This document shows positions 5,801-44,215 of a stretch of 44,527 nt of DNA, piece after piece. Numbering within the stretch: position 1 is the stretch's first letter; every line of letters begins with the position of its first letter. The position numbers were made by a program, and so were the translations under genes. The stretch comes from a virus: positions 1 to 44,527 of IMG/VR virus record IMGVR_UViG_3300020222_000048; one strand, 5' to 3'. The notes under the pieces are model-generated. The model made no database searches. It was not told the DNA's origin and worked only from the letters and a program-made list of their open reading frames with translations.

Positions 5801-8496
5801 AGTTTAAATTTACTGGTGGCGATGATTTAAACAACTTAAGACAAAACGTATTAAATTTAAATTCTAACTCAACAAACCAAACAGAAGGAATTATTCCTAT
5901 TATTCATGAAACTTTTAAATATGTAGATGATTATTTGCGCGATAATAATATTACATTACAACAATTTTATGAAATTAAAGGAAATATTATCGATAAAGTA
6001 TTATTACTATTTGATGGTTATATAAATGACAATACATATGATTTTTATGAAAATAGAAAAAAATATCCTACATTATATAAATATTTAAATATTTCTAGGT
6101 CTAATATTGCTAATTCTTTCTTTTTTAATTTTGAAGGTATATCTACACTTTCTGCTATAAGTGAATTATTGGATTCAAACGATACTTTGAAAGATTTTTT
6201 CTTTTTCTCTGTTGGTGGCAAGAGAACTTTATTTGTTAATTCTTTCTTTACAGCAGAAAAATACTATAATACAATTTATTCCAATCTAGCCACTTATAAC
6301 GTTTATGAAACACAATATTTAAATTCTTTACAAGAAAATTTAATTTTAAAGAAAAATAATAAAAATTTTATTAATATAAAAAACACTGAACCTATAGATC
6401 AAAATATACAAAATTATATTTTTAATGATTTAAATCTGTCACTTAGCAATTTAAATAAACAGGATGTTTTTGTTAAGTTTATAAATAACAAAAAAAGTGT
6501 TTATCCTGTTTCCGGCGAACAAATAGATACTTCTTCTAGCCCCGACTTAAAACAGACATTTAAGTATTTTAATGATTCAATTATTGAAAATTTATTGTCG
6601 GTAGAAAACAAATTTTGTTATTTAAAAGAACAATCTAAGTTAAATACTTCTTCTCCTGATTCTCAAACTATCTTTTTGTCTGATGAAGGCTATGGTCGTC
6701 CTTATACTAAGTTATTAAAATTAGTAATTAATCAAACAATGGATGAAAAAAGCTGTGATATTAAGCCAAATTATTTAGACATAGATCTAATCAAAAAAGA
6801 CGCTTTAAGTAATAAAAATAATTGTTCTTTTTTTGAAGTGCCTAAGTACGAAGAGGTATCAAGCGCACCAGAAGCAGTTTTAAATTATAATTTTAATTAT
6901 ATTTTGAAGCCGGATGAAATATATGATATACCGCAAAATAGTAAGCAAAAAAATATATTAAATTCATTATATACTTTATTTATTAGAACATATGTTCATG
7001 AGGCAATTTTAAAAGCTGCTTCGCTTTTTAGCTTTTATGATCCACAAAGTTTTAAAAATAATAATTTCTTTTATCAATTATTAACTGATTTGGTAGAAAA
7101 CGAAATGCGTTTTAATGATAATAAAACTTTTGAATTAATGATGAATTTTTACGGTAAAAATAATACGCTAGAACAAAGAAGAGGAATTTTAAAACAAAAA
7201 ATTGTTTTTGAATTAAATAATTATGTTTTACCAAAAATTACAAAAAGAGTCGATCAAGATACAAATAACGCAATCATGTCTGAGCCAAATGAAGTGCCAA
7301 TATCTTTAGTTGACTTTGAAGAAAACATAAAAAATAATAAATGTATTGAATTAGATTCAAATTGTGTTTATTTAATATATTATTCAAATAATATAAAAAC
7401 AAAACAAAAAATTTATCAAACTTCGGACAGTAACGTATGGAATAGTTTTAAAAATTCAAATGAATATAAATTATTATTTAACTTTTTAATTCCTCATAAG
7501 CATATATTAGCATATTTCTTTGCTCTTTCTTATGTCAGCATTAACGCCAATAAAAACAATACTAAACCTTTTATTAACACAAAAAGAGCACTTTCTAGAA
7601 CAGTAAAAAATATAGTAACAAAAGGTTTTAGAATCGCGTCAGATCCACTAGACGCTCAAGATACTGTTCTTAGTGATGCTAATTTAGATTTAATTAAGTT
7701 TATTTTAAAAAGTATGATAACCACACCAATTAAAATTTTAAAAGGCGTGGCAGAAACTACAGAGCCAAATTTATCATTAGTATCAAAACTTTACTTAGGT
7801 GCTAAAACGCTTAATCCTGATTTATCTTCGGTTTTCATTCCTGCGGTTTCTATACCTTTGGGCTTACCTACGCCCGTCAGTCCTCCAATACTTCCTTTTG
7901 TTAATCTACCTTTAGCTTTAGCGTATTTTGGAAGTTTAGCTTGGTTTTCTGATGATATAAGTTTTAATCTTGATTCCTCTAAAGAAGCCGCAAATAATGC
8001 ATTAAATAAAAATGTAAATGGAATTAATTGTGAACAAAAAATTTTATCCAATAGAGATAGTACATATTTCAAATCGTATACTACAAAAAATAATTCAGTA
8101 TATTCTAATTATAAAATAAATAATATTTTAAATGAAACTTTACTACAGTATGTAAACAGAAAATATACTTCTTTAGATAAAATGTTTAGCAAGGAAGCTT
8201 ATTCAGCGGATAAAAAACCTCCTAACGCCATTTGGTCCGACTCTCCGTATAGTATTGAATTTAAGAAAATTGAATCCTTAATCGATGTTTATAGTAATAC
8301 GGGTATAGGGCTTTTATGGCTAGATCTTGATATGCCTTATCCGGTAGACGGTCCAGAAGGATTCAAGAGTTTTGTAGAATTAGCTTTTAATAATTCTGGT
8401 GAAACTGATTTTAATAAATGGGTTCTTAAAGAAGACGTGTTTGGGTTATCCCCAGCAGTTAAAGTAGATTTCTCAATACTAGCCGCAAATAAATAA
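2836..8496 (+). CDS. Very large baseplate-region structural protein with N-terminal SH3-like domain (1886 aa)
   Basis: This 1886-residue protein starts one base after the previous stop. Residues ~25-95 look like a bacterial-type SH3 fold: a strand with NTPIILLEEK, then GLWNRIKVKDGDNYKIGYVK, which is the usual 'W-kVk...GyV' ending. Residues ~100-240 contain a segment (LRRAYLEGSKLILEEKGF ... INPRPCSTLRVLVAIPKKYV) that I recall in other large-phage proteins near gp25. The middle is helical with repeated Cys (ISSACMAKYL, AKACLSD, DLSSCLTPKEMCKL). The rest is Asn/Asp/Lys-rich. A short Pro/Leu-rich hydrophobic stretch lies around residues 1660-1705. No enzyme motif was found. Its place between the spike-like gene and gp25-like gene suggests a baseplate hub or wedge organiser; a tape-measure role is less likely because long regular coiled coil is not evident. 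Confidence 0.6.
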   Translation: MFNVNSKKYPVYKDFNTHTLSSNSGDVLKHFFAIQELPPSTPIPVNYELLDDNTPIILLEEKIGYKGLWNRIKVKDGDNYKIGYVKSVLKPISGSLPFHPVNLAIENLPNYSAAQIDWINQPPGVVYDDVHNACYAVHYELEDVTSVEDRNTFNNSLRRAYLEGSKLILEEKGFSSNEIDNLLNNYYIFSRAEEWYINPRPCSTLRVLVAIPKKYVNYYLNRNVINKISNFKPKSPTKKYKTKTFNNYFEYKEFFDSLTTTLKHYNTGLVGRTWELDPDYMTFNLAVEAENVMKLEEKIILFLKQNIPSAFVNTQRDLLFTSKEIWLGSLELVFDELCITEIKFKTFNNNKLNSLYEIVKNRSYEDLKNNYINDLPDTDAVFNTGVTSFLKDAAVLDKTNVYYLLNFNPSDDSVAIIDNLLDVNYEKKIETFLVEKHYPSIFKFEFKPLNLIQCSVDNAMRLNNLAQYKLPSEIEKFKRVRQRAVDNQIKNEGDPFSSAFVDLNTVVDPNMRVLLGLDLPRGKTAKEKLMNYIIVAKRIDWGKFLAISSACMAKYLSPEEYRQLLDSYQNAKKYLDTLAANSICNPYLTNALKTINMVGIPEFPVISQNASLVKQIENAIIQMVMDLLQQTIKSALINAAKACLSDPNADYTDNSPQSADEVGDFLNNNSNNNVNNLLNDLGDSSLSPDKVKNDLISLIDDLSSCLTPKEMCKLFSNTTLNDDVMQIIITLVKRKYPEYSNKLNDKKSISNLFLTLGNNIDLTICRDLINSDTPSSADSTSVICDGEKINNIREALLKDKGLDQELIDDLLNQIKQKEKKNLEDVFKLLSSDKPFDISLAPNVLCNMLPDEALGTFDQDQKNSIDSIFNSMYSIFDEEALEWHKITYSTKKQNKTIIEWDSNNQTFKIPPPDSNAFKQQGDEIKKLNDPDKSKDINIALLDSSVNDKKIPFYLFKYGLRNSSYEVYDDKNNFYLYNKIDGDLEQRLNYEFKFTGGDDLNNLRQNVLNLNSNSTNQTEGIIPIIHETFKYVDDYLRDNNITLQQFYEIKGNIIDKVLLLFDGYINDNTYDFYENRKKYPTLYKYLNISRSNIANSFFFNFEGISTLSAISELLDSNDTLKDFFFFSVGGKRTLFVNSFFTAEKYYNTIYSNLATYNVYETQYLNSLQENLILKKNNKNFINIKNTEPIDQNIQNYIFNDLNLSLSNLNKQDVFVKFINNKKSVYPVSGEQIDTSSSPDLKQTFKYFNDSIIENLLSVENKFCYLKEQSKLNTSSPDSQTIFLSDEGYGRPYTKLLKLVINQTMDEKSCDIKPNYLDIDLIKKDALSNKNNCSFFEVPKYEEVSSAPEAVLNYNFNYILKPDEIYDIPQNSKQKNILNSLYTLFIRTYVHEAILKAASLFSFYDPQSFKNNNFFYQLLTDLVENEMRFNDNKTFELMMNFYGKNNTLEQRRGILKQKIVFELNNYVLPKITKRVDQDTNNAIMSEPNEVPISLVDFEENIKNNKCIELDSNCVYLIYYSNNIKTKQKIYQTSDSNVWNSFKNSNEYKLLFNFLIPHKHILAYFFALSYVSINANKNNTKPFINTKRALSRTVKNIVTKGFRIASDPLDAQDTVLSDANLDLIKFILKSMITTPIKILKGVAETTEPNLSLVSKLYLGAKTLNPDLSSVFIPAVSIPLGLPTPVSPPILPFVNLPLALAYFGSLAWFSDDISFNLDSSKEAANNALNKNVNGINCEQKILSNRDSTYFKSYTTKNNSVYSNYKINNILNETLLQYVNRKYTSLDKMFSKEAYSADKKPPNAIWSDSPYSIEFKKIESLIDVYSNTGIGLLWLDLDMPYPVDGPEGFKSFVELAFNNSGETDFNKWVLKEDVFGLSPAVKVDFSILAANK

Positions 8497-8522: not shown

Positions 8523-8897
8523 ATGCAAGGATATTCACCTAAACTTCCGTTACTAAAAGATTCTATAGACGGTTGCTATGGACTAAATAAAACAATTGTT
8601 GATACTATAAAACAAAACTTTAAAATGCTTATTCTTACTAATCCGGGTGAGAGGGTTATGATACCTGATTTTGGTGTTGGAATTAGAAGATTTCTGTTTG
8701 ACCAAGATACCGATGCGGTTAGAGCTAGCATTACAACAAGAATTAGACAACAGGTAAGTCAATATATGAGTTTTTTAACTATAGACGATATAGCTATATC
8801 AAAACCAGAATCAAACGATGAAAATACGGTTTTTATACAAATAAAATATTCAATAACCAATTTAAATGTAAAAGATATACTAAATATTGAAGTATAA
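8523..8897 (+). CDS. 25: Baseplate wedge protein, GPW/gp25 family (124 aa)
   Basis: The length (124 aa) and sequence fit the GPW/gp25 family: LTNPGERVMIPDFGVGIRRF followed by LFDQ, then an amphipathic helix (SITTRIRQQVSQY) and a C-terminal strand pair. The 'PGER---P-FG-G-R--LF' core is the family signature. In T4, gp25 joins gp6 and gp53 at the inner wedge, next to the sheath initiation ring. Here the gp6-like gene follows directly. It is preceded by a weak AGGAAA ribosome binding site. This is the firmest functional anchor in the window. Confidence 0.92.
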   Translation: MQGYSPKLPLLKDSIDGCYGLNKTIVDTIKQNFKMLILTNPGERVMIPDFGVGIRRFLFDQDTDAVRASITTRIRQQVSQYMSFLTIDDIAISKPESNDENTVFIQIKYSITNLNVKDILNIEV

Positions 8898-8936: not shown

Positions 8937-10739
8937 ATGGCTAAAAAAATAATACCTATTAAATACACAAGTCGTGATTTTCAGAGCATAAAAGACGATT
9001 TAATAGAACATGCTAAGAGATATTATAAAGATTCTTATAAGGATTTTAACGAAGCGTCGTTCGGCTCTTTAATGCTAGATTCTGTAGCATATATAGGCGA
9101 TATGTTATCTTTCTATATTGATTATCAGGCAAATGAAAGCTTTCTTGATAATGCGGTAGAGTATGAAAATATTATAAAAATAGGTAGACAATTAGGATAT
9201 AAATTTACTAATTCTGTTTCTTCAACAGGGGTGGCTAGTTTTTATATTTCTCTTCCGGCTATAGCTGGTGGTTTAACACCTAATTTTGATTATGCGCCCG
9301 TATTAAAAAGAGGTAGTACTTTTAAAACAGTCAACGGAGTATCGTTTATATTAAACGAAGATGTAAGATTTGATAATCCAAACAATGAAATAAGGGTAAG
9401 TACAGTAGACGAAGACGGATCACCGACTTTTTATGCTGTAAAGGCGGTAGGAACTGTAGTTTCTGGCTTGACAACATCAGAAACTGTATCTGTCGGCGCA
9501 TATGAGAGATTTAAGAAAATTAATTTAAATCAGTTAGATATTGTTGAAATATTATCTGTTGTAGACTCAGAGGGTAATGAATATTTTGAAGTTGATTATT
9601 TATCTCAAAATGTTATTTATAAATCTTATACTAATAAAAATCCTACTGATGCCGTATTGGCAAAAGAAATATTAAAACCATTTGTTGTTCCAAGAAGATT
9701 TGTGGTTGATAGAAACTTAAGAACTACCTCATTACAATTCGGTGCTTCAACTAATATAGAGCTAGATAATTCTAATAATATCAGTTTTGAGCCTACCAAT
9801 GTAGTATTGGATATCTATGGAAAAGATTATATTTCCAGCGACTCTTTTGACCCTTCAAGACTATTAAATAATGATAAATTTGGTATTTGTCCTTCAAATA
9901 CCACTCTTACTGTCACATATAGATATAACGATTCTTCTAATGGCGTTAACTTTGCAGTTAACTCTTTAAATTCTGTTTCAAATGCAAAGTTTGACTTTAT
10001 GAATGAACAAGATTTAGACCCTGATTTAGTAGATGCTGTACAGGAAAGTTTAGAAATAAACAACGATGTTCCATTACTTGGTGATGTTACTGTAATAGAT
10101 TCTGAGGAGTTAAAGAGAAGAATTGAAAATAGCTTTTCTGCTCAGAATAGAGCTGTAACGCAGCAAGATTATAAATCTTTAGTATATGCAATGCCATCCA
10201 AATTTGGAGCTATTAAAAGAGTAAATATTATAAGAGATGATAATTCCTTAAAGAGAAATTTAAATCTTTATATCTTATGTGAAGACGCAGATGAAAAACT
10301 AACCATCGCTAATCAAAGCGTAAAATCAAACATAAAAACGTGGCTAAGTCGCAATAAAATGATTAATGATTCTATAGATATATTAGATGGAAAAATTATT
10401 AATTATGCTATTACGTTTGTAGCTTTAGGTACAAATGAAAAGGCAAAAAGCGATATTTTAATTGATGCCCTAAATCAACTCAAGTCTGATTTTTCGAGAC
10501 TTCCTGATTTTGGAGAAACATTTAATATTATTGATATCTATTCTAGCTTGAAAAAAGTTCCATCTATTATTGATGTTGTTTCTGTTAAAGTGGAGCCAAG
10601 AGTTGGAAATAATTACTCTAATTCACAAATGGATTTTAAACAAAATACAACTGCTGATGGAAGGTTTATAAGTGTACCTCTCAATGTTGTAATGGAATTA
10701 AAATATCCGGATAGTGATATAAAAGGAACAATTTTATAA
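8937..10739 (+). CDS. 6: Baseplate wedge protein, gp6 / baseplate J-like (600 aa)
   Basis: The N-terminus reads KKIIPIKYTSRDFQSIKDDL, then EASFGSLMLDSVAYIGDMLS and YIDYQANESFLDNAVEYENI. This is the typical opening of T4 gp6-like and P2 J-like wedge proteins, with a helical N-terminal part followed by beta-rich repeats. A second J-like landmark is RAVTQQDYKSLVYAMPSKFG (residues ~405-425). In the contractile-tail family this protein forms the iris ring that changes diameter during baseplate expansion. Its length is close to T4 gp6 (about 660 aa). A good TGAGGAAAG ribosome binding site lies at about 8922-8930. The stop overlaps the next start as TAATG. Confidence 0.9.
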   Translation: MAKKIIPIKYTSRDFQSIKDDLIEHAKRYYKDSYKDFNEASFGSLMLDSVAYIGDMLSFYIDYQANESFLDNAVEYENIIKIGRQLGYKFTNSVSSTGVASFYISLPAIAGGLTPNFDYAPVLKRGSTFKTVNGVSFILNEDVRFDNPNNEIRVSTVDEDGSPTFYAVKAVGTVVSGLTTSETVSVGAYERFKKINLNQLDIVEILSVVDSEGNEYFEVDYLSQNVIYKSYTNKNPTDAVLAKEILKPFVVPRRFVVDRNLRTTSLQFGASTNIELDNSNNISFEPTNVVLDIYGKDYISSDSFDPSRLLNNDKFGICPSNTTLTVTYRYNDSSNGVNFAVNSLNSVSNAKFDFMNEQDLDPDLVDAVQESLEINNDVPLLGDVTVIDSEELKRRIENSFSAQNRAVTQQDYKSLVYAMPSKFGAIKRVNIIRDDNSLKRNLNLYILCEDADEKLTIANQSVKSNIKTWLSRNKMINDSIDILDGKIINYAITFVALGTNEKAKSDILIDALNQLKSDFSRLPDFGETFNIIDIYSSLKKVPSIIDVVSVKVEPRVGNNYSNSQMDFKQNTTADGRFISVPLNVVMELKYPDSDIKGTIL

Positions 10740-31338: not shown

Positions 31339-32448
31339 ATGGCAACAACATATAAATCTTTTCTTGATAACGATTTAGTATCTACTAGAACTTTATTACA
31401 TGAAAATATACCATTAACAGGTTCTATTATTAATGGTACGCCGTACTCTAATAACAATATTAAATCCTATAATCACGGAATGTTTCAAAGTGTATATGAT
31501 TATCCAGTATTAAGTTCTTCTGCTAATCATCTTTTTGATTTAACTGTTGGCCTTTCCAGCACTTCTCCAGCTAGTTCTAGTATTAGCAACGATGTTTTTC
31601 TAAAGAAAAAACGTAATATTTACAACCAGATGGCTCAAGTGTTAGTTGGTCATGATCCAACTGGCTCAATTTATGAATTTGATAGAGATGGTAACCCTGC
31701 TACTGATACAGATAAATTTACATCTATGTATTTTCTTAATTTCTCTAGATTGTTAGTAAAAGATGAAATTAAAAAAGGAAGCGTTGTATTAACAATAGGC
31801 GTAAATTCATCAAGTGCATCTCCTTTTACTGAGCTAATTACCGTATCTGATACTAATGGTGCGTCTAACTATTTTATTAATTCCCCTACTGGAGAATATG
31901 GTACTTTATTTTTAAATGGCACTACGGGTGTTCAATCTACGCAAACAAATAAAGCAGTTGGTTTTGTATTTTATCAAGCAGGCGTGGTTGCTTTATCGCC
32001 CATTATATTCTCTATATCAAGCTCTACTGCTCCAGAAGACTCTTTAGCATCTAATCAGTTTGGTCAATTAACACACGAAGTGCAATTAAATAGCACTTAT
32101 AACTGGGATGTTCAAAGGGCTTTTGAAAGTGGTTCAATTAATCAAATAAACGATGCTCTAAGGGCACGTATAAAAAACATTACATTTAACAATACAACAG
32201 AACTAAATTCAACTATTCATTTTTGCCGTATTAATCACAATGAATTTAATTATAGTTCTAATCCAACATATTTGCAAGATAGCAAAATTAGAGTTAAAAA
32301 CACCACAAGTGATGCTCCGGTTTCTTATATAACCACTGTTGGTTTATATTCGCCAGACAACGAATTATTAGCTGTAGCTAAGGTGTCAGAACCGCTAAAG
32401 AAAGACCCTACACAAGAAATGATTTTAAGAGTTAGATTGGACTACTAA
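31339..32448 (+). CDS. Structural protein with 'EFNYSxNPT ... IAxAKLxxP' C-terminal domain, copy 1 (369 aa)
   Basis: The C-terminal ~80 residues (FCRINHNEFNYSSNPTYLQD, then YITTVGLYSPDNELLAVAKV and a final RVRLDY) are shared with the protein at 33392-34369. The middle also matches: KKGSVVLTIGV ... a 'DTNG' turn ... AVGFVFYQAGVVAL here, against DKGSIELDFFI ... GQVAGVVLYNEGFILI there. A ribosome binding site AAGGAAG lies 5-10 nt before the ATG. This layout is familiar from large-phage structural genes, but no function is assigned. It may be a minor tail or head-surface protein. Confidence 0.58.
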   Translation: MATTYKSFLDNDLVSTRTLLHENIPLTGSIINGTPYSNNNIKSYNHGMFQSVYDYPVLSSSANHLFDLTVGLSSTSPASSSISNDVFLKKKRNIYNQMAQVLVGHDPTGSIYEFDRDGNPATDTDKFTSMYFLNFSRLLVKDEIKKGSVVLTIGVNSSSASPFTELITVSDTNGASNYFINSPTGEYGTLFLNGTTGVQSTQTNKAVGFVFYQAGVVALSPIIFSISSSTAPEDSLASNQFGQLTHEVQLNSTYNWDVQRAFESGSINQINDALRARIKNITFNNTTELNSTIHFCRINHNEFNYSSNPTYLQDSKIRVKNTTSDAPVSYITTVGLYSPDNELLAVAKVSEPLKKDPTQEMILRVRLDY

Positions 32449-33391: not shown

Positions 33392-34369
33392 ATGTCACAA
33401 TATTATCGATTTTTACCAAAAGGTAGCTCTTTAGAATCTTTTAAAACAGTATCTGCCGAACAACACAATTATAGTGGTTATGGAGAAATATTTACTGGTA
33501 GTTATCCTCTTAGTTCCTCCATTAATTTAGAATATTATTCTCAAAATTTATCGTTTGTTCCCGATAGACCACATATTTATTCACTTAAAAATGTGTTAAA
33601 TTATTATTCCTACTTAAGTCCTCATTTTTCTTATAATTCTAATTTAGGTAATAAAAATTCTCAAGCCATTAAACTAATAAGTATACCATCTATATTTTTT
33701 GGCTCTTCTCTAGATAAAGGCTCAATAGAACTAGATTTTTTTATATCCGGTACTTTAGTTGCTAAGTTACAAGATTATAAAAAAAATGGGGAGCTTATAC
33801 AAACCACTGGTTCAAATGGACTAGGACAAGTAGCAGGAGTAGTTTTGTATAATGAAGGTTTTATTTTAATAACTGGATCTTGGAATTTAGATAATTCACA
33901 TACAGAAACATATATTTATAACGACAATGGCTCCAGCGTTAGCGATAATCCAAAATGGATATATTGGGGCACTGGATTAAATCAAGAGAACAATTTAACT
34001 ATTTCTTCAAGTTTTGATTTAAAATTTGAAGGTATAAACTATGTCAATGTTTTAACTATGTTAGCTCACGCGGAAAAAGGAGAATTTAATTACTCTAATA
34101 ATCCAACATTTATTAAAAGCTCTTCTATGACTGCCAGTGCGCCAATTAGTGGCAGTAAAATGTATATAGAAAATCCTAATTTAGAAATAAAAAATGTTAA
34201 AAAGTACGCTTACGAAGATTATGTTGGAGATTTAGAAAAGGAAACTTATATCTCTAAAATAGGTATTTATGACGAAAATAAAAATTTAATAGCCATAGCT
34301 AAATTAGCTAAACCTATAAGAAAAACTGAAAATAGAGACTTAACATTTAAACTTAAATTAGATATATAA
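33392..34369 (+). CDS. Structural protein with 'EFNYSxNPT ... IAxAKLxxP' C-terminal domain, copy 2 (325 aa)
   Basis: This is a paralogue of the protein at 31339-32448. It has the same C-terminal block (AEKGEFNYSNNPTFIKSSSM, TYISKIGIYDENKNLIAIAK, then KLKLDI) and a similar middle. The N-terminal ~100 residues are different (SSLESFKTVSAEQHNYSGYG, then Tyr/Ser-rich). An extra ~25 residues sit between the two shared C-terminal motifs. There is little Shine-Dalgarno signal upstream (AACGGTAATATAATTATATATT), and a TATAAACG stretch at 33366-33373 is only a weak late promoter match. The role is unknown. Confidence 0.58.
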   Translation: MSQYYRFLPKGSSLESFKTVSAEQHNYSGYGEIFTGSYPLSSSINLEYYSQNLSFVPDRPHIYSLKNVLNYYSYLSPHFSYNSNLGNKNSQAIKLISIPSIFFGSSLDKGSIELDFFISGTLVAKLQDYKKNGELIQTTGSNGLGQVAGVVLYNEGFILITGSWNLDNSHTETYIYNDNGSSVSDNPKWIYWGTGLNQENNLTISSSFDLKFEGINYVNVLTMLAHAEKGEFNYSNNPTFIKSSSMTASAPISGSKMYIENPNLEIKNVKKYAYEDYVGDLEKETYISKIGIYDENKNLIAIAKLAKPIRKTENRDLTFKLKLDI

Positions 34370-34375
34370 CTTTCA

Positions 34376-36391
34376 ATGATTAAAGATCAAAATAGCGAAG
34401 TAAATAAAGGAATTAATTTAACACCAACTGTGATAGAAACAGTTGATTCTGCTTTTTTTGATTATATTAATAGCTTAGAAATAAATTGTAACACTAATGA
34501 GGGATGGCAAAAGATTCCTATTATCTGGTCATCGGCAGAAAGATCATATCAGATAAAAAATAATAAAAAACTAAGAGATAAAAATGGCGCTCTAGTGCCG
34601 CCCATAATTTCTTTAGAAAGACTTAGCATAACAAAAGATCCTAATAAAAAAGGAAACTTTCAAGCAAATTTATCTCCAAAAGATGACAGACACTATATTA
34701 CAAAAGTTTTAAATCAAGATAAAACTTCTAATTTTGCAAACGCAGATGCTGCTAAAAGTAATGGTCCTAACTTTGCTACCGGCAAAAAAAACAAAAAAGT
34801 TGTCTATGAGCATATAGCTGTACCTATACCAATCTATGTTGTATGCGAATACAAAATAAATCTTTTAACTGGTTATCAAGCACAGATGAATGAAGCCTTA
34901 CAGCCATTCATTGCCAAAACAGCACAAAATTATTTTATAATAAAGAAAGATGGGTATCGTTTTGAATGTTTCATGGATCAAAACTTTGCTCAAGATAATA
35001 AGTCAGATTTTACTGAGGAAGAAAGAAAGTTTACTACTTCTATTAACATAAAAGTTCTTGGTTATGTAATTACGCAGGGTCAAAACGAAGAAAAAGAATT
35101 TAAAAAAATAGATGAAAACGCTGTAGAAATAAAAATACCTAGAGAAAAAGTAATTGTAGATACGCCAGCAACAACAAGAAAAAAAATTAAACAATTACAA
35201 TCAATTCAAGGTTTATCTACAAGTATTACATTACCGCCCGATAAGCCATTAAAAACAGGAGAATTGTCTGGAGAAATAGAGGGTGGACAGCGCGATGAAA
35301 CTTCTGAAAAATCTAAAAAGCTAAATCTTAAGTCTAGCAGTATTGAGACTATTGATTCTGCATTCTTAGAATATGTTGAAAATTTAAATGTATTTTGTAA
35401 TACAAATGAAGGTTGGGAAAAAGTACCTGTTATTTGGGGGTCTGCCGAACGAGCTTATCAAATAAAAAACAACAAAAGACTAAGAGATAAAAATGGAAGT
35501 TTAATAGCCCCTATAATATCGCTTGAAAGAACCAGTGTTAATAAAGACCCTAACAAAAAAGGTAATTTTCAAGCGAATGTTTCTCCTAGCGATGATAGGT
35601 ACACTATTACAAAAGTTTTAAATCAAGATAAAACATCTAATTTTGCAAATGCAGATGCATTAAAAAAGAGCGGCCAATTAAATTTTTCAACATCAAAGAA
35701 AAATAAAAAATTAGTTTATCAACATTACTCTGTCCGCATTCCTGTATATGTTACAGTAGAATACAAAATAAACATTTTAACCAACTATCAAGCTCAAATG
35801 AACGAGATTATGCAACCGTTCATGGCTAAAACAGCACAAAACTATTTTGTTATTAAAAAAGACGATCATCCGTATGAATGTTTTATGGATCCCGCCTTTC
35901 AACAAGAAACTATAAACGATTTATCAGAAGAAGAAAGAAAATTTAAAAGCACTATAACCGTAAAAGTGCTAGGCTATTTATTAGGCGAGGGAGAAAACAG
36001 AGAAGACAGAAACGTTAATATAGATGAAAATGCGGTTGAAATTAAAATACCGCGTGAAAAAATTATATTAGATAATCCTGATCCAAAGAAAAAACGTAAA
36101 GAAATATCTAGCTTTGATTCAATTTCTTCCGGTTTAGGTTCTGGAACATCTTCACAAGTTGGTGTTTCGGGCGTTGTTAAAAAAACATTTATTATTGGTA
36201 ACGCTATAGATTCTGTTTATACTGTATCTCATGGATTAAATACACGTGATATTTATGTGTCTGTTAGAGAAAACTTTGGTAGCTTCTATCAAGTAATTGC
36301 CCATATAGAATTTCCGAGCCTTAATTCTATTCTTGTGGATATGGGCGATATTATTGAAGAAAATAGCTATGTTGTAACTATTATGGGCTAG
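34376..36391 (+). CDS. Tandem-duplicated gp15-like tail completion / sheath-stabiliser protein (671 aa)
   Basis: Two copies of a ~242-residue domain are fused, at residues 21-262 and 324-565. Each runs from 'ET-DSAF' through CNTNEGW, IWSSAERSYQIKNNKKLRDK, DPNKKGNFQAN, LNQDKTSNFANADA, EYKIN-LT-YQAQMNE, EERKF and NAVEIKIPREK. By eye about two thirds of positions agree. The layout (basic strand, a VPIPIYVVCEYKINLLTGY strand, QMNEALQPFIAKTAQNYF, then EERKFTTSINIKVLGYV) follows T4 gp15, which stabilises the contracted or extended sheath and closes the tube, so I place it there with moderate confidence. Residues 263-323 form a charged linker. The last ~75 residues (TVSHGLNTRDIYVSVRENFG ... YVVTIMG) match a small C-terminal domain common in phage fibre and virion proteins. 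The gene ends with TAG just before a late promoter. Confidence 0.6.
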   Translation: MIKDQNSEVNKGINLTPTVIETVDSAFFDYINSLEINCNTNEGWQKIPIIWSSAERSYQIKNNKKLRDKNGALVPPIISLERLSITKDPNKKGNFQANLSPKDDRHYITKVLNQDKTSNFANADAAKSNGPNFATGKKNKKVVYEHIAVPIPIYVVCEYKINLLTGYQAQMNEALQPFIAKTAQNYFIIKKDGYRFECFMDQNFAQDNKSDFTEEERKFTTSINIKVLGYVITQGQNEEKEFKKIDENAVEIKIPREKVIVDTPATTRKKIKQLQSIQGLSTSITLPPDKPLKTGELSGEIEGGQRDETSEKSKKLNLKSSSIETIDSAFLEYVENLNVFCNTNEGWEKVPVIWGSAERAYQIKNNKRLRDKNGSLIAPIISLERTSVNKDPNKKGNFQANVSPSDDRYTITKVLNQDKTSNFANADALKKSGQLNFSTSKKNKKLVYQHYSVRIPVYVTVEYKINILTNYQAQMNEIMQPFMAKTAQNYFVIKKDDHPYECFMDPAFQQETINDLSEEERKFKSTITVKVLGYLLGEGENREDRNVNIDENAVEIKIPREKIILDNPDPKKKRKEISSFDSISSGLGSGTSSQVGVSGVVKKTFIIGNAIDSVYTVSHGLNTRDIYVSVRENFGSFYQVIAHIEFPSLNSILVDMGDIIEENSYVVTIMG

Positions 36392-36512: not shown

Positions 36513-37901
36513 ATGGCTAATCCATTAAAGATTTTAACAGTGTTATCAGCTTCTAAAGCAGTTGAAATGGAAGAAACATTAAAAGTAATTGGTAATGCAG
36601 ATTTCGATTCACAATTAACAGCTTCTTGGTTAAAAGTAGAAAACAGTGCTGACGTAGACGGTGCATTAGATGTAGGCGGCGCAGCAAGCTTAGCTAGCAC
36701 ATTAAGCGTAACAGGTATTGCTGACTTTGATTCACAAGTAACAGCATCATCCTTGAAAGTAGAAAACGCAGCCGAAGTAGCAGGTGCTGCTACATTCGGT
36801 AGCACAATGAAGGTTATTGGCAATGCCGACTTTGACGCTCAAGTAACTGCTTCTTTATTGAAGGTAGAAGGTGCAGCTGAAATTGCTGGCGCAGCAGAAT
36901 TAGGTTCTACATTACACGTAGTTGGTATTGCAGATTTCGATTCACAAGTAACTGCTTCTGCTTTGAAAGTAGAAAATGCAGCTGAAGTAGTAGGCGCTGC
37001 TACATTTGGTAGCACAATGACAGTTATTGGTAATGCTGACTTTGATGCACAATTGACGGCTTCTACTGCAAAAGTAGAAGGTGCTGCTGAAATTGCTGGT
37101 GCTGCTGAATTCGGCTCAACCATGCATGTAGTTGGCAATGCTGACTTTGATGCACAATTAACAGCATCTGCTTTGAAAGTAGAAAATGACGCACAAATCG
37201 TAGGCGATTTATCAGTACGCGATATTGCTGCACGTTCTGGCTCATTCTCTGGCGATTTGTCAGTTCAAGGTAACTTGCTAGTCGAAGGTGCATTAACTTA
37301 CATCAATACTGCCAATTTAGATGTAACAGACAAACAAATCACTATTGCTAAAGGTTCTGCTGATGCCGCTGCTGCTAACGGCGCAGGAATTTTAGTAGAA
37401 GGCGCTGCTGCTTCTCTTACCTATAATAGCACAGGTGATAAATGGTCATTCAATAAAGACCTACAATTAGACGCTGGTAATCAAATGTTCCTTTCTGGTG
37501 CATTGTTTGCTAATGCAACAGTAGAAACAGCACGCGATGGTTCTGGTTTCTATGATGTTGACGATGTGTTGCACAAATTAGCAAGCGCTGGTTCTTCATT
37601 CCAAGCAGCTTATAACGCCGCTCGTTATGTTGAAGTTGGCTCATTGTCATCCGGTACGGCTACTGTAAACATTACTTCTGGCGCAGCATCATTGTTGTTT
37701 GCTGTAGCAGAAAAGAACAACATTGCTCTTGACGTAGTAGTAAGCGTTGATGACGGTGCAAGCTGGACAAACGACTTAGTAGCAGTCAAATTATATGCTG
37801 ATGGTCTTTCATTAAAGGTACAAATCGAAGCACCAGCTATGTCTGGGGAAGAGGGTGCTAAGTACCGTTTGATTGCTGTAAACGAAAAAGATTTAACATA
37901 A
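36513..37901 (+). CDS. Tail fibre-like protein with 35-residue repeats (462 aa)
   Basis: Residues 1-24 form an N-terminal peptide (MANPLKILTVLSASKAVEME) resembling those of the other three fibre proteins. Residues 25 to about 230 contain six repeats of about 35 residues with the core NADFDAQLTASALKVEN-AAE---GAA-FGSTM. Such Ala/Val/Gly-rich periodic sequence is typical of beta-helical fibre shafts. Residues ~230-330 are a further beta-rich shaft (LDVTDKQITIAKGSADAAAA). The last ~110 residues (FYDVDDVLHKLASAGSS ... NDLVAVKLYADGL ... KYRLIAVNEKDL) are the recurrent C-terminal domain of this cassette. The gene is visibly less AT-rich than its neighbours and is bracketed by its own promoter, leader and a strong terminator, so high independent expression is likely. 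Confidence 0.72.
   Translation: MANPLKILTVLSASKAVEMEETLKVIGNADFDSQLTASWLKVENSADVDGALDVGGAASLASTLSVTGIADFDSQVTASSLKVENAAEVAGAATFGSTMKVIGNADFDAQVTASLLKVEGAAEIAGAAELGSTLHVVGIADFDSQVTASALKVENAAEVVGAATFGSTMTVIGNADFDAQLTASTAKVEGAAEIAGAAEFGSTMHVVGNADFDAQLTASALKVENDAQIVGDLSVRDIAARSGSFSGDLSVQGNLLVEGALTYINTANLDVTDKQITIAKGSADAAAANGAGILVEGAAASLTYNSTGDKWSFNKDLQLDAGNQMFLSGALFANATVETARDGSGFYDVDDVLHKLASAGSSFQAAYNAARYVEVGSLSSGTATVNITSGAASLLFAVAEKNNIALDVVVSVDDGASWTNDLVAVKLYADGLSLKVQIEAPAMSGEEGAKYRLIAVNEKDLT
36585..37196 (+). repeat. Tandem 105-bp (35-residue) repeats in fibre gene, six units
   Basis: Units begin at about 36585, 36708, 36813, 36918, 37023 and 37128. The first is longer by six residues and the last is partial. 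Alternate units are more alike (KVEN-AAEV--GAATFGSTM versus KVEGAAEIAGAAE-GST-H), giving a higher-order period of 210 bp. The DNA is similar enough to allow unequal recombination. Confidence 0.85.
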
Positions 37902-38056: not shown

Positions 38057-41000
38057 ATGGCTAACGTAAGACCATTAACTGTATATACAAATTTAGACGC
38101 TAAGCAAGATATTAATGCTAGCGGTAGTGTAAAAATATTTACAAGCGACAGCTTTAATAGAACAAGTATTATTACTTCTTCTGCCGGTATGTATGATCTA
38201 GACGGCGCTTTACATGAATTAGATCAAGCAATAGTTGATAAAGGCATAGAAATTAAAGACGCCTATGAAGCTGTAAGATATAAGAAATCAGATGTTTTAG
38301 ACGAAAGCGGAAAAGCATTATTAAACTTAACCTCTTTAGCATCTTCTGGTGCTAGTTATTTTACAACTGGCAATTTACAAGATATTGCCATAGATTTATT
38401 AGTTGATACAGAAAAGAACGGTCGTTATAAAAACGACATGGCTTCTGTCCAATTGTATTCCAGCGCTAGCGCTTTATGGGCTGAAATTGATGCTCCCGGT
38501 GCCAGTGCAGCACCATATCGTTTTATAGCAGTAAATGAAACTATACTAGCATTATTAGGTAGTGCCTCTGGTCAAGGTGGTGGAGGCGCTGGCGGCTCAG
38601 GAGATATAACAGCCGTTATTGCTGGCACAAATTTAACCGGCGGTGCAGCATCAGGTGATGCAACTATAAACTTAAATTCTGTATTATCCGGATTAAGCAG
38701 CGTTACATCTACAGGTTTTACAGGTAGTTTGTTAGGTAATGCCTCTACTGCCACATCGGCAACCAGTGCCGTTACAGCACAAACAGCTTCTTATATTGCT
38801 ACAGGTTCAGCAATTTCTACATTTACACAAGATGTGAGAGCACAATTTAGTGCTGGATCTAATATTACAATTACTGATGGTGTTATCGCCTCTACTGCTG
38901 GAGGCGGTGGAGGATCTTATGCTTTAGGCGATCAATTAACTGCTTCTTATTTAAGAATTTATACAGAAGAAATTAGTCAACAAGCATCTTCATTGACTAA
39001 TAATATGATTTCTTATTTTAGTTTTGATGGTAATTTAAATGATTCTGTTTCCGCTAATACTGCTTCTAGAAACTGGAGTTTTGCACAAAATCCCGCTTCT
39101 TCTTCTGCATTTGTTGTAGGTGGTCAAGGTTTTTCTTTCTTTCCTTATGAATGGCCTTATAACAGCTCGCATTTAATATTGTCTTCATCAATACCATTAT
39201 CTTCTTCAGGTGGTGATTGGTCTTTTTCATGTTGGGTTAAGCCACAATACTTTAGTAACAGTAATAGACACGCAATCATAGGCGATATCGGAGATCCTAA
39301 TTTTAGTTGGGCCGATCCAGCTTATGCCGGTAAACAAGACCGCACACGCGACGGTTTTGGTCTTACAAATCTTAATGCTAATAGCTATGGAACAATTTAT
39401 GGTGGCACTTCAAGCGGTAGTTTGTATATTCGTTCTGGTGACACAATTGTTAATTTTACTAGCACAATTGTATCAGGTACTTGGTATCATTTAGTTCTTA
39501 CATATGATAAAACAGCACAAAAAGTTAAATGCTATGTTGATAATGTTTTAGACTCAGAACAAACTTTAGCTGATACTTTTGATGTTAAATATTTTGGTGC
39601 TGTTTATAATAATAATGATCCATTACATGGTTATGGTGATGAATTTGGTTTTTGGAATAGAAAAATAACAATAAATGAAATTACTTCATTATATAACAGT
39701 GGTGCTGGAAAATTATATTCTGATTTATCAGCACAAATAAATAATAATATACTTCCTAGCGGCTCTATCACGTTATCAGGTAGTTTCAACATGACAGGTA
39801 CGTTTAATCTAAATGGCGCTTCCTATACTGATTTAGCATCACTAGGAGAATTAAATGCCTCTGCTGCTGGATTAGCTAATACAATTACCGTTGTTTCTGG
39901 CAATATTTCTGGAACTATAAATAATTTATCTGGTAATATTGTAAATTATATTAATACTGTTTCAAACGCTGGCACACAATTTTTGACAGACACAATTACC
40001 GGAAGTGTGTTAGAATATTATAAAGCTGGAACGGGAATTAGTTTAGTAAATGGCACATTTAGTGCAGCTAGTGTTCCTAACGCTTCCCTACAAAATAGCT
40101 CTATTACTATTAACGGTTCACAAGTAAGTTTAGGTAGTTCTATTAACGTTGGAGATATTACTAGCGTTACTGCTGGCTCTAATTTGTCTGGAGGTGGAAA
40201 CTCTGGTGATGTTACAATTAGTTTAGCGTCCACTTTAACAGGTTTATCTAATGTTACTTCTACTGGATTTACTGGTAGTCTACTGGGTAACGCTTCTACT
40301 GCTACTGTTGCCGTTACAGCTCAAACAGCTTCTTTGGCAACATTAGCTACATTAGCTACAACTGCTGAAACAGCTTCTTATATGTCTAGTGGTTCTAAAA
40401 TTGCAACATTTACCAATGATGTAAGAAATCAATTTAGTGCTGGTAATAATATAACGATTACAAATGGTATGATTGCAGCTTCAGAAAATTCAATTTATAT
40501 CGGTGATAAAATCATTACAGGTTCTTTGACAGTTGCTCCTACTTATCCTTATGGAACTGGTTCTTTAACAAGTTCTTTAGAGGCATATTTTAGTCTACAA
40601 ACTAGTTCTTATGATGCATTAGAATCGGCAATAGTATCTTATGATGAAGTTGGAACATATAAAGCCGTAGTTATGCCAAATGTAACAATTTCACACGAAC
40701 AATCTGTTAAATTTAAAGGAGCATCATTTACTACTTCTATCAACGATTGGTGGACAGAAAATGTTTTAGAAATAAAACCTAATATACAATTAAAAGATTA
40801 TAATGAATTTACTATTAATTATTGGACTTATTTTACACAATATAGTGTAGGAGTTTTATCTACTATTAAACATCATTTTACTACAAATGAACCATATAGT
40901 AATAATGGCGATAACAGTATTATTTATGCTGGAAATATCATAGCGTCTAATTGGCCTGTAACTACAGGATATGCCACTTATCAAGTTGATAATACTGGTA

Positions 41001-41434
41001 TGGGTACTAATGTTTGGGGAATGATTTCTGTTACATACAATAAATCTACCGGAGTGGCTAAGTTTTATACCAATGGTATTTATCGTTCTTCCAATACAAT
41101 CACTAATTGGAATATGGTCATTAAATATCTTGGTATTGGAAAATATGACGAAATAGGAATATGGTCTAGAGTGTTAAACGATTCAGATATATCTGCGTTA
41201 TATAATAGTGGAAATGGTACTAGTTATAGTGAAATTTCTGATCTTTCGTCAGTTACTGCGGGGGGAAGTATCCAATTTAATGGAGATTTATCTGTTGGCG
41301 GTGATTGTAATGTAAATCAAATTAAAATAGATTCTCAAGCTAATGCTCTTGGTCCGTCCCTTTTAGGTACTTTAGCGGTTTCTGGCTCACATCTATACTT
41401 TTATGATGGTAATGATTGGAAAATGATAATTTAG
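38057..41434 (+). CDS. Tail fibre-like adhesin with two LamG-like domains (1125 aa)
   Basis: The N-terminal peptide MANVRPLTVYTNLDAKQDIN resembles those of the other fibre proteins. Residues ~38-160 hold the recurrent cassette domain (MYDLDGALHELDQAIV ... RYKNDMASVQLY ... YRFIAVNE). A Ser/Thr/Gly/Ala-rich shaft block (~182-282, with STGFTGSLLGNASTAT and QFSAGSNITITDGVIAS) is followed by a LamG-like domain at ~314-553 (YFSFDGNLNDSVSAN, GTWYHLVLTYDKTAQKVKCY, EFGFWNRKITINEITSLYNS). The same shaft block (~699-808) and a second LamG-like domain (~836-1055) then repeat. The end (GSHLYFYDGNDWKMII) is typical of a fibre tip. LamG domains bind glycans or proteins, so host-surface binding is likely. 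The gene is followed by a terminator and seems to form its own transcription unit. Confidence 0.75.
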   Translation: MANVRPLTVYTNLDAKQDINASGSVKIFTSDSFNRTSIITSSAGMYDLDGALHELDQAIVDKGIEIKDAYEAVRYKKSDVLDESGKALLNLTSLASSGASYFTTGNLQDIAIDLLVDTEKNGRYKNDMASVQLYSSASALWAEIDAPGASAAPYRFIAVNETILALLGSASGQGGGGAGGSGDITAVIAGTNLTGGAASGDATINLNSVLSGLSSVTSTGFTGSLLGNASTATSATSAVTAQTASYIATGSAISTFTQDVRAQFSAGSNITITDGVIASTAGGGGGSYALGDQLTASYLRIYTEEISQQASSLTNNMISYFSFDGNLNDSVSANTASRNWSFAQNPASSSAFVVGGQGFSFFPYEWPYNSSHLILSSSIPLSSSGGDWSFSCWVKPQYFSNSNRHAIIGDIGDPNFSWADPAYAGKQDRTRDGFGLTNLNANSYGTIYGGTSSGSLYIRSGDTIVNFTSTIVSGTWYHLVLTYDKTAQKVKCYVDNVLDSEQTLADTFDVKYFGAVYNNNDPLHGYGDEFGFWNRKITINEITSLYNSGAGKLYSDLSAQINNNILPSGSITLSGSFNMTGTFNLNGASYTDLASLGELNASAAGLANTITVVSGNISGTINNLSGNIVNYINTVSNAGTQFLTDTITGSVLEYYKAGTGISLVNGTFSAASVPNASLQNSSITINGSQVSLGSSINVGDITSVTAGSNLSGGGNSGDVTISLASTLTGLSNVTSTGFTGSLLGNASTATVAVTAQTASLATLATLATTAETASYMSSGSKIATFTNDVRNQFSAGNNITITNGMIAASENSIYIGDKIITGSLTVAPTYPYGTGSLTSSLEAYFSLQTSSYDALESAIVSYDEVGTYKAVVMPNVTISHEQSVKFKGASFTTSINDWWTENVLEIKPNIQLKDYNEFTINYWTYFTQYSVGVLSTIKHHFTTNEPYSNNGDNSIIYAGNIIASNWPVTTGYATYQVDNTGMGTNVWGMISVTYNKSTGVAKFYTNGIYRSSNTITNWNMVIKYLGIGKYDEIGIWSRVLNDSDISALYNSGNGTSYSEISDLSSVTAGGSIQFNGDLSVGGDCNVNQIKIDSQANALGPSLLGTLAVSGSHLYFYDGNDWKMII

Positions 41435-41975: not shown

Positions 41976-43088
41976 ATGGCAGTTAAGCCAGCAAAAGCAA
42001 TTGCTGATCTACTTGCAAGAAAACAAATTCTTAAAGTAGATAAAGAAAACAATATTCTTTTTAAAGTTTCCGGGTCTTTAGGTTCTGGCGCTGTTAGTTC
42101 GTCATTACCGATTACAGCTTCATCGTTTTATGCACAAAATTCATCTTCAGTTGATAGTTTATTAACCGTACAAAATTTATTTATTAAAGATGAAAAAAGT
42201 TTTGTAAATATAAATCAACTAAGTAATGTGTCTGCATCGGATGCCCGTGAAGGTGAATATCTTGTTTATAGCGGCTCTAACTGGGTTCCTTCTTCTGTTC
42301 GCGGCGTAGGTATAACAAAAGAAACATACAATCGCGTAAGGTATAGTGTTTCTGGCACTTTTGATGATAACGAAACAATAGAGATACCTTTACCTTTATC
42401 TTCTTCCATACGTGGTCCGTCTTTTACGGTTGAGTCTGTAAATCAAATAAATTTTACATTATTGATTCAAGAAACTCCTGTTTCTAATTGGAAAAACGAT
42501 TTAGCTTCTGTTGAATTAAAAGTTTCAGGAAACTTACCGCAAATATATGCCGTTATTTCTGCGCCTTCTAAACCATATGCGTATAGTTTTAACGCTGTAA
42601 ACTTGAATCCAGATGTAGTCAATTCATCTATTATGTTAGGTGAATATACTACGTTGATTGTTGAAGATGATGCTTTTATATCTGGCGGTTTATTTGTTAG
42701 TGCGTCTTCACCATTAAACAATATAGGAAATGTTAATTTATTATCGGGCACTTTTTATGATGTTGATAATGTTTTTACCTCAATAGATGCTCGTTTTTCG
42801 CAATTAGTTACTAACTTCAATAATTTACGCGAAGTGCAGATAGGAAATTTTGATATTTATGGCAATAAAATCGTTACATTAAATAATTTTATTGCTGATG
42901 ATATTGATTATTTGTCTGTAGATGTAATGGTTAAATACGGTGGAACAACACAATATGTAAATGACCTTATCAGTGTTCGTATGTCAGGCAGCGTAAACAA
43001 TAAAATAGATGTTGAAATCAGCGCTCCTAGCGTAAGCAGTCAAGATTTTTATAGAATTATTGCAGTTAAAGAGTCCGGAAGTATATAA
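41976..43088 (+). CDS. Fibre-like protein with two copies of the cassette domain (370 aa)
   Basis: The N-terminal ~55 residues (MAVKPAKAIADLLARKQILK, then VD...LFKVSG...VSSSLPIT) are clearly paralogous to those of the gene at 43130. A short linker (INQLSNVSASDAREGEYLVY) leads to one copy of the recurrent cassette domain at ~108-212 (YNRVRYSVSGTFDDNE ... NWKNDLASVELKVSG ... YAYSFNAVNLNP). A second copy follows at ~255-370 (FYDVDNVFTSIDARF ... YVNDLISVRMSGS ... FYRIIAVKESGSI). There is almost no shaft, so this is probably a short fibre or an adaptor that links longer fibres to the baseplate. An AAGGAAA ribosome binding site lies about 11 nt before the ATG. Confidence 0.68.
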   Translation: MAVKPAKAIADLLARKQILKVDKENNILFKVSGSLGSGAVSSSLPITASSFYAQNSSSVDSLLTVQNLFIKDEKSFVNINQLSNVSASDAREGEYLVYSGSNWVPSSVRGVGITKETYNRVRYSVSGTFDDNETIEIPLPLSSSIRGPSFTVESVNQINFTLLIQETPVSNWKNDLASVELKVSGNLPQIYAVISAPSKPYAYSFNAVNLNPDVVNSSIMLGEYTTLIVEDDAFISGGLFVSASSPLNNIGNVNLLSGTFYDVDNVFTSIDARFSQLVTNFNNLREVQIGNFDIYGNKIVTLNNFIADDIDYLSVDVMVKYGGTTQYVNDLISVRMSGSVNNKIDVEISAPSVSSQDFYRIIAVKESGSI

Positions 43089-43129: not shown

Positions 43130-44215
43130 ATGGCAGTTAAACCAGTTAAAGTGTTAACAGATCTGCAAACAAATAAGCAGATTACAAAAGTAGATCGTAA
43201 TGCATCTAATGCAGTATTATTTAACGTATCAGGTACAGTAGCAGGCGGTCATGTTAGTTCTTCCTTACCGTATACAGGCTCTGGACTTTTTATTGATGGT
43301 AACGCTTTAATTAACGGTATATTAACTGTTAAGACTTATCACTCTATTGATGTAACTGCTTCTGTATTATATGAAAGCGGTTCTAGCAAATTTGGTAATA
43401 CAGCAGATGACACACATCAATTTACAGGTAGCGTACTGGTAAATGGTTCATTTACAGCAGATTATTTAACAGCATCATTAGGTTTATATTCTGGCGGTCC
43501 TTCAGAATTATCTGGCGCTGTAACAGCAAGAAATGGATTAACCATTCTTGGTTCTGCTCTAGACGCTAGTGCCGTTCCTGTATCTGCTTCGGCATTAAAT
43601 GTTACTACAACCGCTCTAGTAGGTTCTACTTTAACAGCAGTAGGTGGATTAACTTCATCAGCTGGATTAAATGTTGTTGGTTCTTCCGTTCTTGGTGGTG
43701 CTGTTACAGCAACAACTTCTGTATATTCGCCATTAATTGCTGCTACAAACGTAAAAGCTGTTACTAGTTCTGTTGCTGCACAAACTCCGTTTAGTAATTT
43801 AGCAGTAATTACCTCTTCACAAGCTGTTGGCCTAGCATCATATGATATTTATAGCATTGATCAAGCATTCCATGCTGTAGATACTGCTGTTTCAAATACA
43901 TTTAATTCTTATAAACGTCTTCGTCATCAAGTTAGTGGCACATTTGATCCAAGCGGTGTACAATTAGTAGCGTTACCAACCGCTTCTTTAGGCGGTGCTG
44001 CCTTCCCAATTTCTTCTTTAGATTTCATTACGGTAGATGTAATGATTAAATTAGAAAGCGGCGATAACTGGATGAACGATGTTGTAGCGGTTGAGGCTTA
44101 TGTAACAGGTTCATCGGGCAATGAGTATATTGAAATTGCTATTAATTCAGCAGATATTCCTTATGCTTATCGTTTAATAGCAGTTAATGAAGATCCAACT
44201 AAATATGTGATATAA
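43130..44215 (+). CDS. Tail fibre-like protein (361 aa)
   Basis: An AAGGAG ribosome binding site (about 43115-43120) precedes the ATG. The N-terminal ~50 residues (MAVKPVKVLTDLQTNKQITK, LFNVSGTVAGGHVSSSLPYT) match the gene at 41976. Residues ~85-230 form an Ala/Val/Thr/Ser/Gly-rich shaft with irregular repeats (GAVTARNGLTILGSALDAS, TLTAVGGLTSSAGLNVVGSS). The last ~120 residues are the recurrent cassette domain (YDIYSIDQAFHAVDTAVSNT ... NWMNDVVAVEAYVTG ... YAYRLIAVNEDPT). The codon use is less AT-rich than in the upstream giant genes, as in the fibre gene at 36513. It is likely a virion fibre. Confidence 0.7.
   Translation: MAVKPVKVLTDLQTNKQITKVDRNASNAVLFNVSGTVAGGHVSSSLPYTGSGLFIDGNALINGILTVKTYHSIDVTASVLYESGSSKFGNTADDTHQFTGSVLVNGSFTADYLTASLGLYSGGPSELSGAVTARNGLTILGSALDASAVPVSASALNVTTTALVGSTLTAVGGLTSSAGLNVVGSSVLGGAVTATTSVYSPLIAATNVKAVTSSVAAQTPFSNLAVITSSQAVGLASYDIYSIDQAFHAVDTAVSNTFNSYKRLRHQVSGTFDPSGVQLVALPTASLGGAAFPISSLDFITVDVMIKLESGDNWMNDVVAVEAYVTGSSGNEYIEIAINSADIPYAYRLIAVNEDPTKYVI

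Follow-up and report, generated by a model that had tools for sequence, protein, structure and literature searches.

A tandem gp15-family protein among tail genes

The window analysed here is a stretch of viral DNA of 44,527 nucleotides (IMG/VR record IMGVR_UViG_3300020222_000048), and at 34376..36391 its plus strand, which carries all of the features described below for this protein, holds an open reading frame that starts with ATG and encodes a predicted tandem gp15-type tail (sheath) terminator of 671 aa with a C-terminal fibre-tip-like module. Copy A, a full terminator domain, comprises residues 8-270 (34397..35185) and is joined by a linker of residues 271-310 (35186..35305) to copy B, likewise a full domain, at residues 311-574 (35306..36097). 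A beta-sandwich module of the phage-fibre kind follows copy B only, at residues 597-671 (36164..36388). When copies A and B were compared by BLASTP, 173 of 264 positions were identical (66%) and 82% similar, with one gap and an E value of 3e-134. The initial annotation had described two copies within one protein, and this is borne out by the comparison; the three identical blocks that it quoted are all present in both copies. Its span of 34436-36072, however, covers residues 21-565 only, short of the full reading frame, and the third module at about residues 597-671 was absent from it.

The tandem duplication within ORF 34376-36391 is confirmed. The same 671-aa protein is found in two further IMG/VR records, 3300021376_000037 (76,997 bp) and 3300020196_000067 (48,078 bp), and related viruses encode three additional, distinct tandem proteins with lengths of 660, 664, and 669 aa (L006/L117, L115, and L017/L119). 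Because of these further occurrences, an assembly artefact or chance is rejected as the source of the tandem arrangement. Across the four tandem proteins, the gap between the profile matches to the two copies is 46 to 57 residues.

The window also contains gp25-like (8523-8897; PF04965, 1.9e-13) and gp6-like (8937-10739; phrog_219, 2.7e-17) baseplate wedge genes, which place it within the tail and baseplate genes of a phage with a contractile tail. Downstream of the tandem gene lie fibre-like ORFs at 36513-37901, 38057-41434, 41976-43088, and 43130-44215, which share C-terminal segments among themselves across relatives; the first of these also matches a Bactofilin-type beta-helix (PF04519, E 2.1e-9). 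The neighbouring ORFs at 31339-32448 and 33392-34369 have a common C-terminal region of about 90 to 120 residues, with 20 to 29% identity across relatives. A scan of bacterial genomes returned only three matches, all in metagenome-assembled genomes, which gave no clue to the host.

The C-terminal module of the tandem protein matches phrog_8309 (2.7e-13) and phrog_2647, annotated as head decoration (1.6e-6). Its model is all-beta, with six strands and a pLDDT of 91. In the viral structure library BFVD, the model matches fibre proteins of phages and further structural proteins, with TM-scores of up to 0.87, and superimposes on the fibre matches at 0.8 to 0.9 A over about 72 residues; no solved structure in the PDB was significantly matched. 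In two relatives (L122 and L126), the module is encoded as a separate gene of 103 to 108 aa directly after a gp15 gene of 268 aa. In T4, fibritin contacts gp15 (PMC3004832). We infer that the role of the module is display or attachment at the neck.

Predicted fold and gene position of the gp15 family

Layout alone had led the initial annotation to gp15, and that assignment is now backed by the predicted fold of copy B and by where the gene lies in relatives. Copy B was modelled from an alignment of 85 domains (pLDDT 77.6, pTM 0.66). Only this copy was folded, and copy A is taken to have the same fold because the two are 66% identical. In a Foldseek search of the PDB, T4 gp15 from the portal-neck-tail complex ranks first against the model (9mkb_AB, E 2.6e-9), followed by the P1 terminator and then by crystal structures of gp15 (4hud, E 1.5e-7). 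Structural realignment with VIA-align places gp15 (4hud/4huh) first with a Z score of 12.4, and nearly all of the remaining strong structural matches are tail terminators or caps.

Gene position points in the same direction. In the relative L043, the gene order is major capsid, head-tail adaptor, Hc2/gp14-like, gp15-family gene, tail sheath, tail tube, and baseplate hub, and this order, with a gp13-like adaptor, recurs at dozens of loci. The slot between gp13/gp14 and the sheath is thus that of the family, including a sister group of the window clade (L147/L149/L150). Primary sequence carries a fainter signal. Single-sequence scans of the two halves against Pfam and PHROG gave no significant match. 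PF16724 was matched weakly by 2 of 13 family members (best E 0.0041), and the relative L055 matched phrog_227 weakly (0.0087). A family profile run against PDB sequences reached T4 gp15 at a weak E value of 0.32 through two collinear motifs, and a profile of the 85-row alignment matched no PDB chain by sequence, T4 gp15 included. Together, the modelled fold and the gene order in relatives support the identification of the ORF 34376-36391 product as a gp15-type terminator predicted to act at the end of a contractile tail nearest the head.

T4 gp15 forms a hexamer that caps the sheath and sits on gp3 (PMC3004832), and the C-terminal arm of T4 gp14 touches it (PMC12270204). The window protein resembles T4 gp15 (4hud, 4huh, 9mkb; PF16724; phrog_227, "tail sheath stabilizer") in predicted fold, in gene position in relatives, and, more tentatively, in sequence motifs that are weak but collinear. 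Unlike T4 gp15, which has one domain, it has two domains and a C-terminal module, and its gene lies outside the neck operon. The P1 terminator gp24 (8jan), the second Foldseek match, shares the terminator fold; it caps tube and sheath as a ring of six copies of one chain (PMC10304247), and no tandem duplication has been described for it.

Origin, age, and relocation of the duplicated gene

Single-domain proteins make up most of the 174 loci in our homologue survey, whose records are partly redundant. The initial annotation had pointed to single-domain versions in other phages and viewed the fusion as a lineage-specific change, and the survey agrees with it: two-domain proteins are the minority, and the fusion occurs in a single subclade only. 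In the tree, the window clade comprises four tandem viruses and 17 single-copy viruses. One further candidate tandem, the immuto homologue L003, was rejected, as the two pieces reported by the second HMM are one domain matched in two parts. Our searches of an open-access library yielded no paper on a tandem gp15.

The four A copies form one group in the tree (91/81) and the four B copies another (97/86), indicating a single duplication before the split of the four tandem viruses. Four single-copy proteins (L116, L118, L120, and L135) adjoin the B copies (91/96), so that either copy A was lost in these viruses or A was joined later. A topology with A and B alone as a group, in which the duplication falls strictly inside the tandem group, is compatible with the data (p-AU 0.06), and grouping the window's own copies A and B together is disfavoured (p-AU 0.029). 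Codon agreement at residues identical between A and B is 0.558, against 0.563 expected from codon usage. Since codon agreement is at the level of chance while protein identity stands at 66 to 67%, the split is old, with the protein likeness held by selection. The codon comparison and the disfavoured grouping of the window copies likewise reject recent duplication or gene conversion, and the blocks identical in A and B are best read, from these sequence comparisons, as the product of purifying selection, with recent copying excluded. In all four tandem proteins, both halves keep 41 to 43 of the 43 family-conserved residues (in the window, 41 in copy A and 43 in copy B), and fixed differences between A and B in these proteins number three. 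The branch of the window's copy A is longer than that of copy B (0.37 versus 0.16). As judged by sequence, the fusion is derived, of single origin, old, and under selection.

The history of the gene appears to have been stepwise. In the sister group L147/L149/L150, gp15 is single, carries the C-terminal module, and still occupies the neck slot. The neck operon of the window clade (L110, L111, and L112) consists of capsid, adaptor, gp14, sheath, two tube genes, and hub and lacks gp15, and the only gp15-family gene of the clade lies about 27 kb or more from it, among baseplate and fibre-like genes. The module in the neck-slot sister group and the neck operon without gp15 in the window clade therefore indicate the order of events as gain of the module, relocation, and doubling.

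Two side observations concern tube and sheath genes. The window clade has two adjacent gp19-like tube genes (L110, 9176-10498; L111, 1467-2769; L112, 8189-9311) where L043 has one; both members of the pair match the L043 tube protein at about 30 to 35% identity, and the pair is common to viruses with single-copy and tandem gp15. At G011:C1:67442-70291 (minus strand), a sheath match crosses one internal TAA, which could reflect a frameshift, a sequencing error, or something else.

Stoichiometry of the terminator ring

A ring protein at a tail junction has to fit partners whose symmetry is fixed, and the sheath and gp14 are sixfold in known contractile tails. The window is a 44.5-kb fragment without a neck operon of its own, and partner sizes are taken from a relative with 67% identity across the full-length protein. 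The gp14 protein has 172 aa both in the tandem virus G001 and in the single-copy virus G002 (87% identical), and the sheath protein has 896 aa in G001 versus 903 aa in G002 (74% identical). G002 is perhaps a nearly complete genome, a reading suggested only by the consistent spacing obtained on joining its ends. As the sizes of gp14 and sheath are nearly unchanged relative to the single-copy sister virus, six domain places probably remain in the ring. If the sheath and gp14 are indeed still sixfold, the ring calls for six terminator domains, a number that three tandem chains provide.

We consider it probable that the protein is a fused gp15 terminator with three chains per pseudo-sixfold ring, and this is the best explanation of our data. 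Under this model, duplication and fusion of the gp15 gene would have allowed one chain to fill two neighbouring places of a sixfold ring, and three tandem chains would form a ring with true threefold and pseudo-sixfold symmetry, whose lower face would bind the sixfold sheath and whose upper face would bind a gp14-type hexamer. Such a three-chain ring, we infer, would display three fibre-tip-like modules, whereas the rings of single-copy sister viruses would display six. The pseudo-hexamer of three chains, which the initial annotation had raised, is strengthened because both copies keep the conserved residues and the partner proteins are unchanged. In T5, the p142 terminator makes its contacts with the N and C termini on one side and helix 2 on the other (PMC11784142). 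As judged from sequence, the regions corresponding to both contact sides are conserved in A and B, as a ring of alternating A and B domains requires. The initial annotation's idea of two kinds of sites stands in part: the places would differ mainly by the C-terminal module, but the copies themselves are hardly specialised, given their few fixed differences.

A precedent for a tandem-duplicated ring-forming tail domain is the T5 tube protein pb6, which forms trimers of pseudo-hexameric symmetry (PMC9022992, PMC11784142). The likeness extends to the duplication itself, and in the window protein nearly all of the family-conserved residues are kept in both copies. The two differ in that pb6 is a tube protein and the window protein a terminator; the terminator of T5, p142, is a hexamer of single-domain chains. 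In PVC16, the tube/sheath terminator of PVC-type contractile injection systems, the C-terminal domain resembles the terminator fold and represents a domain duplication (PMC11784142). This gives two terminator-like domains per chain, as in the window protein. The second PVC16 domain was recognised by structural similarity, whereas the two window copies share 66% identity and have single-domain counterparts in sister viruses. As PVC16 shows, a pair of terminator-fold domains on one polypeptide does not have to be adjacent in a single ring.

The linker of about 40 residues is long enough for other arrangements too. One of these has six tandem chains with A and B in two separate rings, stacked or concentric, of which one would cap the sheath and the other extend the neck or the tube terminator layer. 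PVC16 is a model for such a chain, and T4 stacks its gp3 and gp15 rings (PMC3004832). We nevertheless regard this arrangement as unlikely, as two rings would be expected to meet different partners, yet A and B have the same conserved residues and only three fixed differences, and the partners are unchanged relative to the single-copy sister virus. The linker would also permit six chains that each place one domain in the ring and carry the other as a spare or peripheral domain. The longer branch of the window's copy A is in keeping with this reading, but a spare domain is expected to lose ring-forming residues, and copy A keeps nearly all of the conserved set in four viruses after synonymous saturation, which makes a spare domain quite improbable. 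Lastly, the protein could be a gp15 descendant that no longer caps the tail and now serves as a fibre-platform or decoration protein beside the fibre genes, as the location of its gene outside the neck operon, among baseplate and fibre-like genes, and its fibre-type module might suggest. We think this very improbable: no second gp15-family match was found in G001 (103 kb) or G002 (174 kb), neck operon included, L147, L149, and L150 show that the module was acquired before the gene left the neck slot, and the core residues have not drifted.

Doubling of gp15 is also seen in another part of the tree, where the neck slot of about 16 partly redundant loci (including L031, L041, L042, L056, L062, L148, L177, and L183) contains a pair of neighbouring gp15-family genes that are not fused. 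Both members of these pairs are intact, with 39 to 43 of the 43 conserved residues, and the second gene carries a C-terminal extension. In L183, the second gene (2947-6750) encodes more than 1,268 aa and has matches to tail-fibre and collagen-like families; a terminator domain is here joined to a fibre-like chain. Adjacent pairs and tandem fusion are thus alike in having two side-by-side copies with the extra module only on the second, and they differ in that the pairs are separate genes within the neck operon whereas the tandem is fused and outside it. Doubling of gp15 has also arisen independently elsewhere, in the form of two adjacent genes. More tentatively, and with somewhat more doubt than confidence, we propose that a C3/pseudo-C6 ring at the sheath end carries a fibre-type module on alternate places only and that the same solution was reached elsewhere by the adjacent genes.

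Close relatives with nearly the same partners thus have either a single or a fused gp15, and distant relatives have an adjacent pair. The stepwise gain of the module, relocation, and fusion provide a natural series for testing the passage from homohexamer to pseudo-hexamer, and the same series would test whether the gain lies in asymmetric fibre display at the neck. A further neck protein of possible relevance is the phiKZ chain 9xps_w (539 aa); its alignment is limited to residues 15-271, and it might be another terminator with a second domain.
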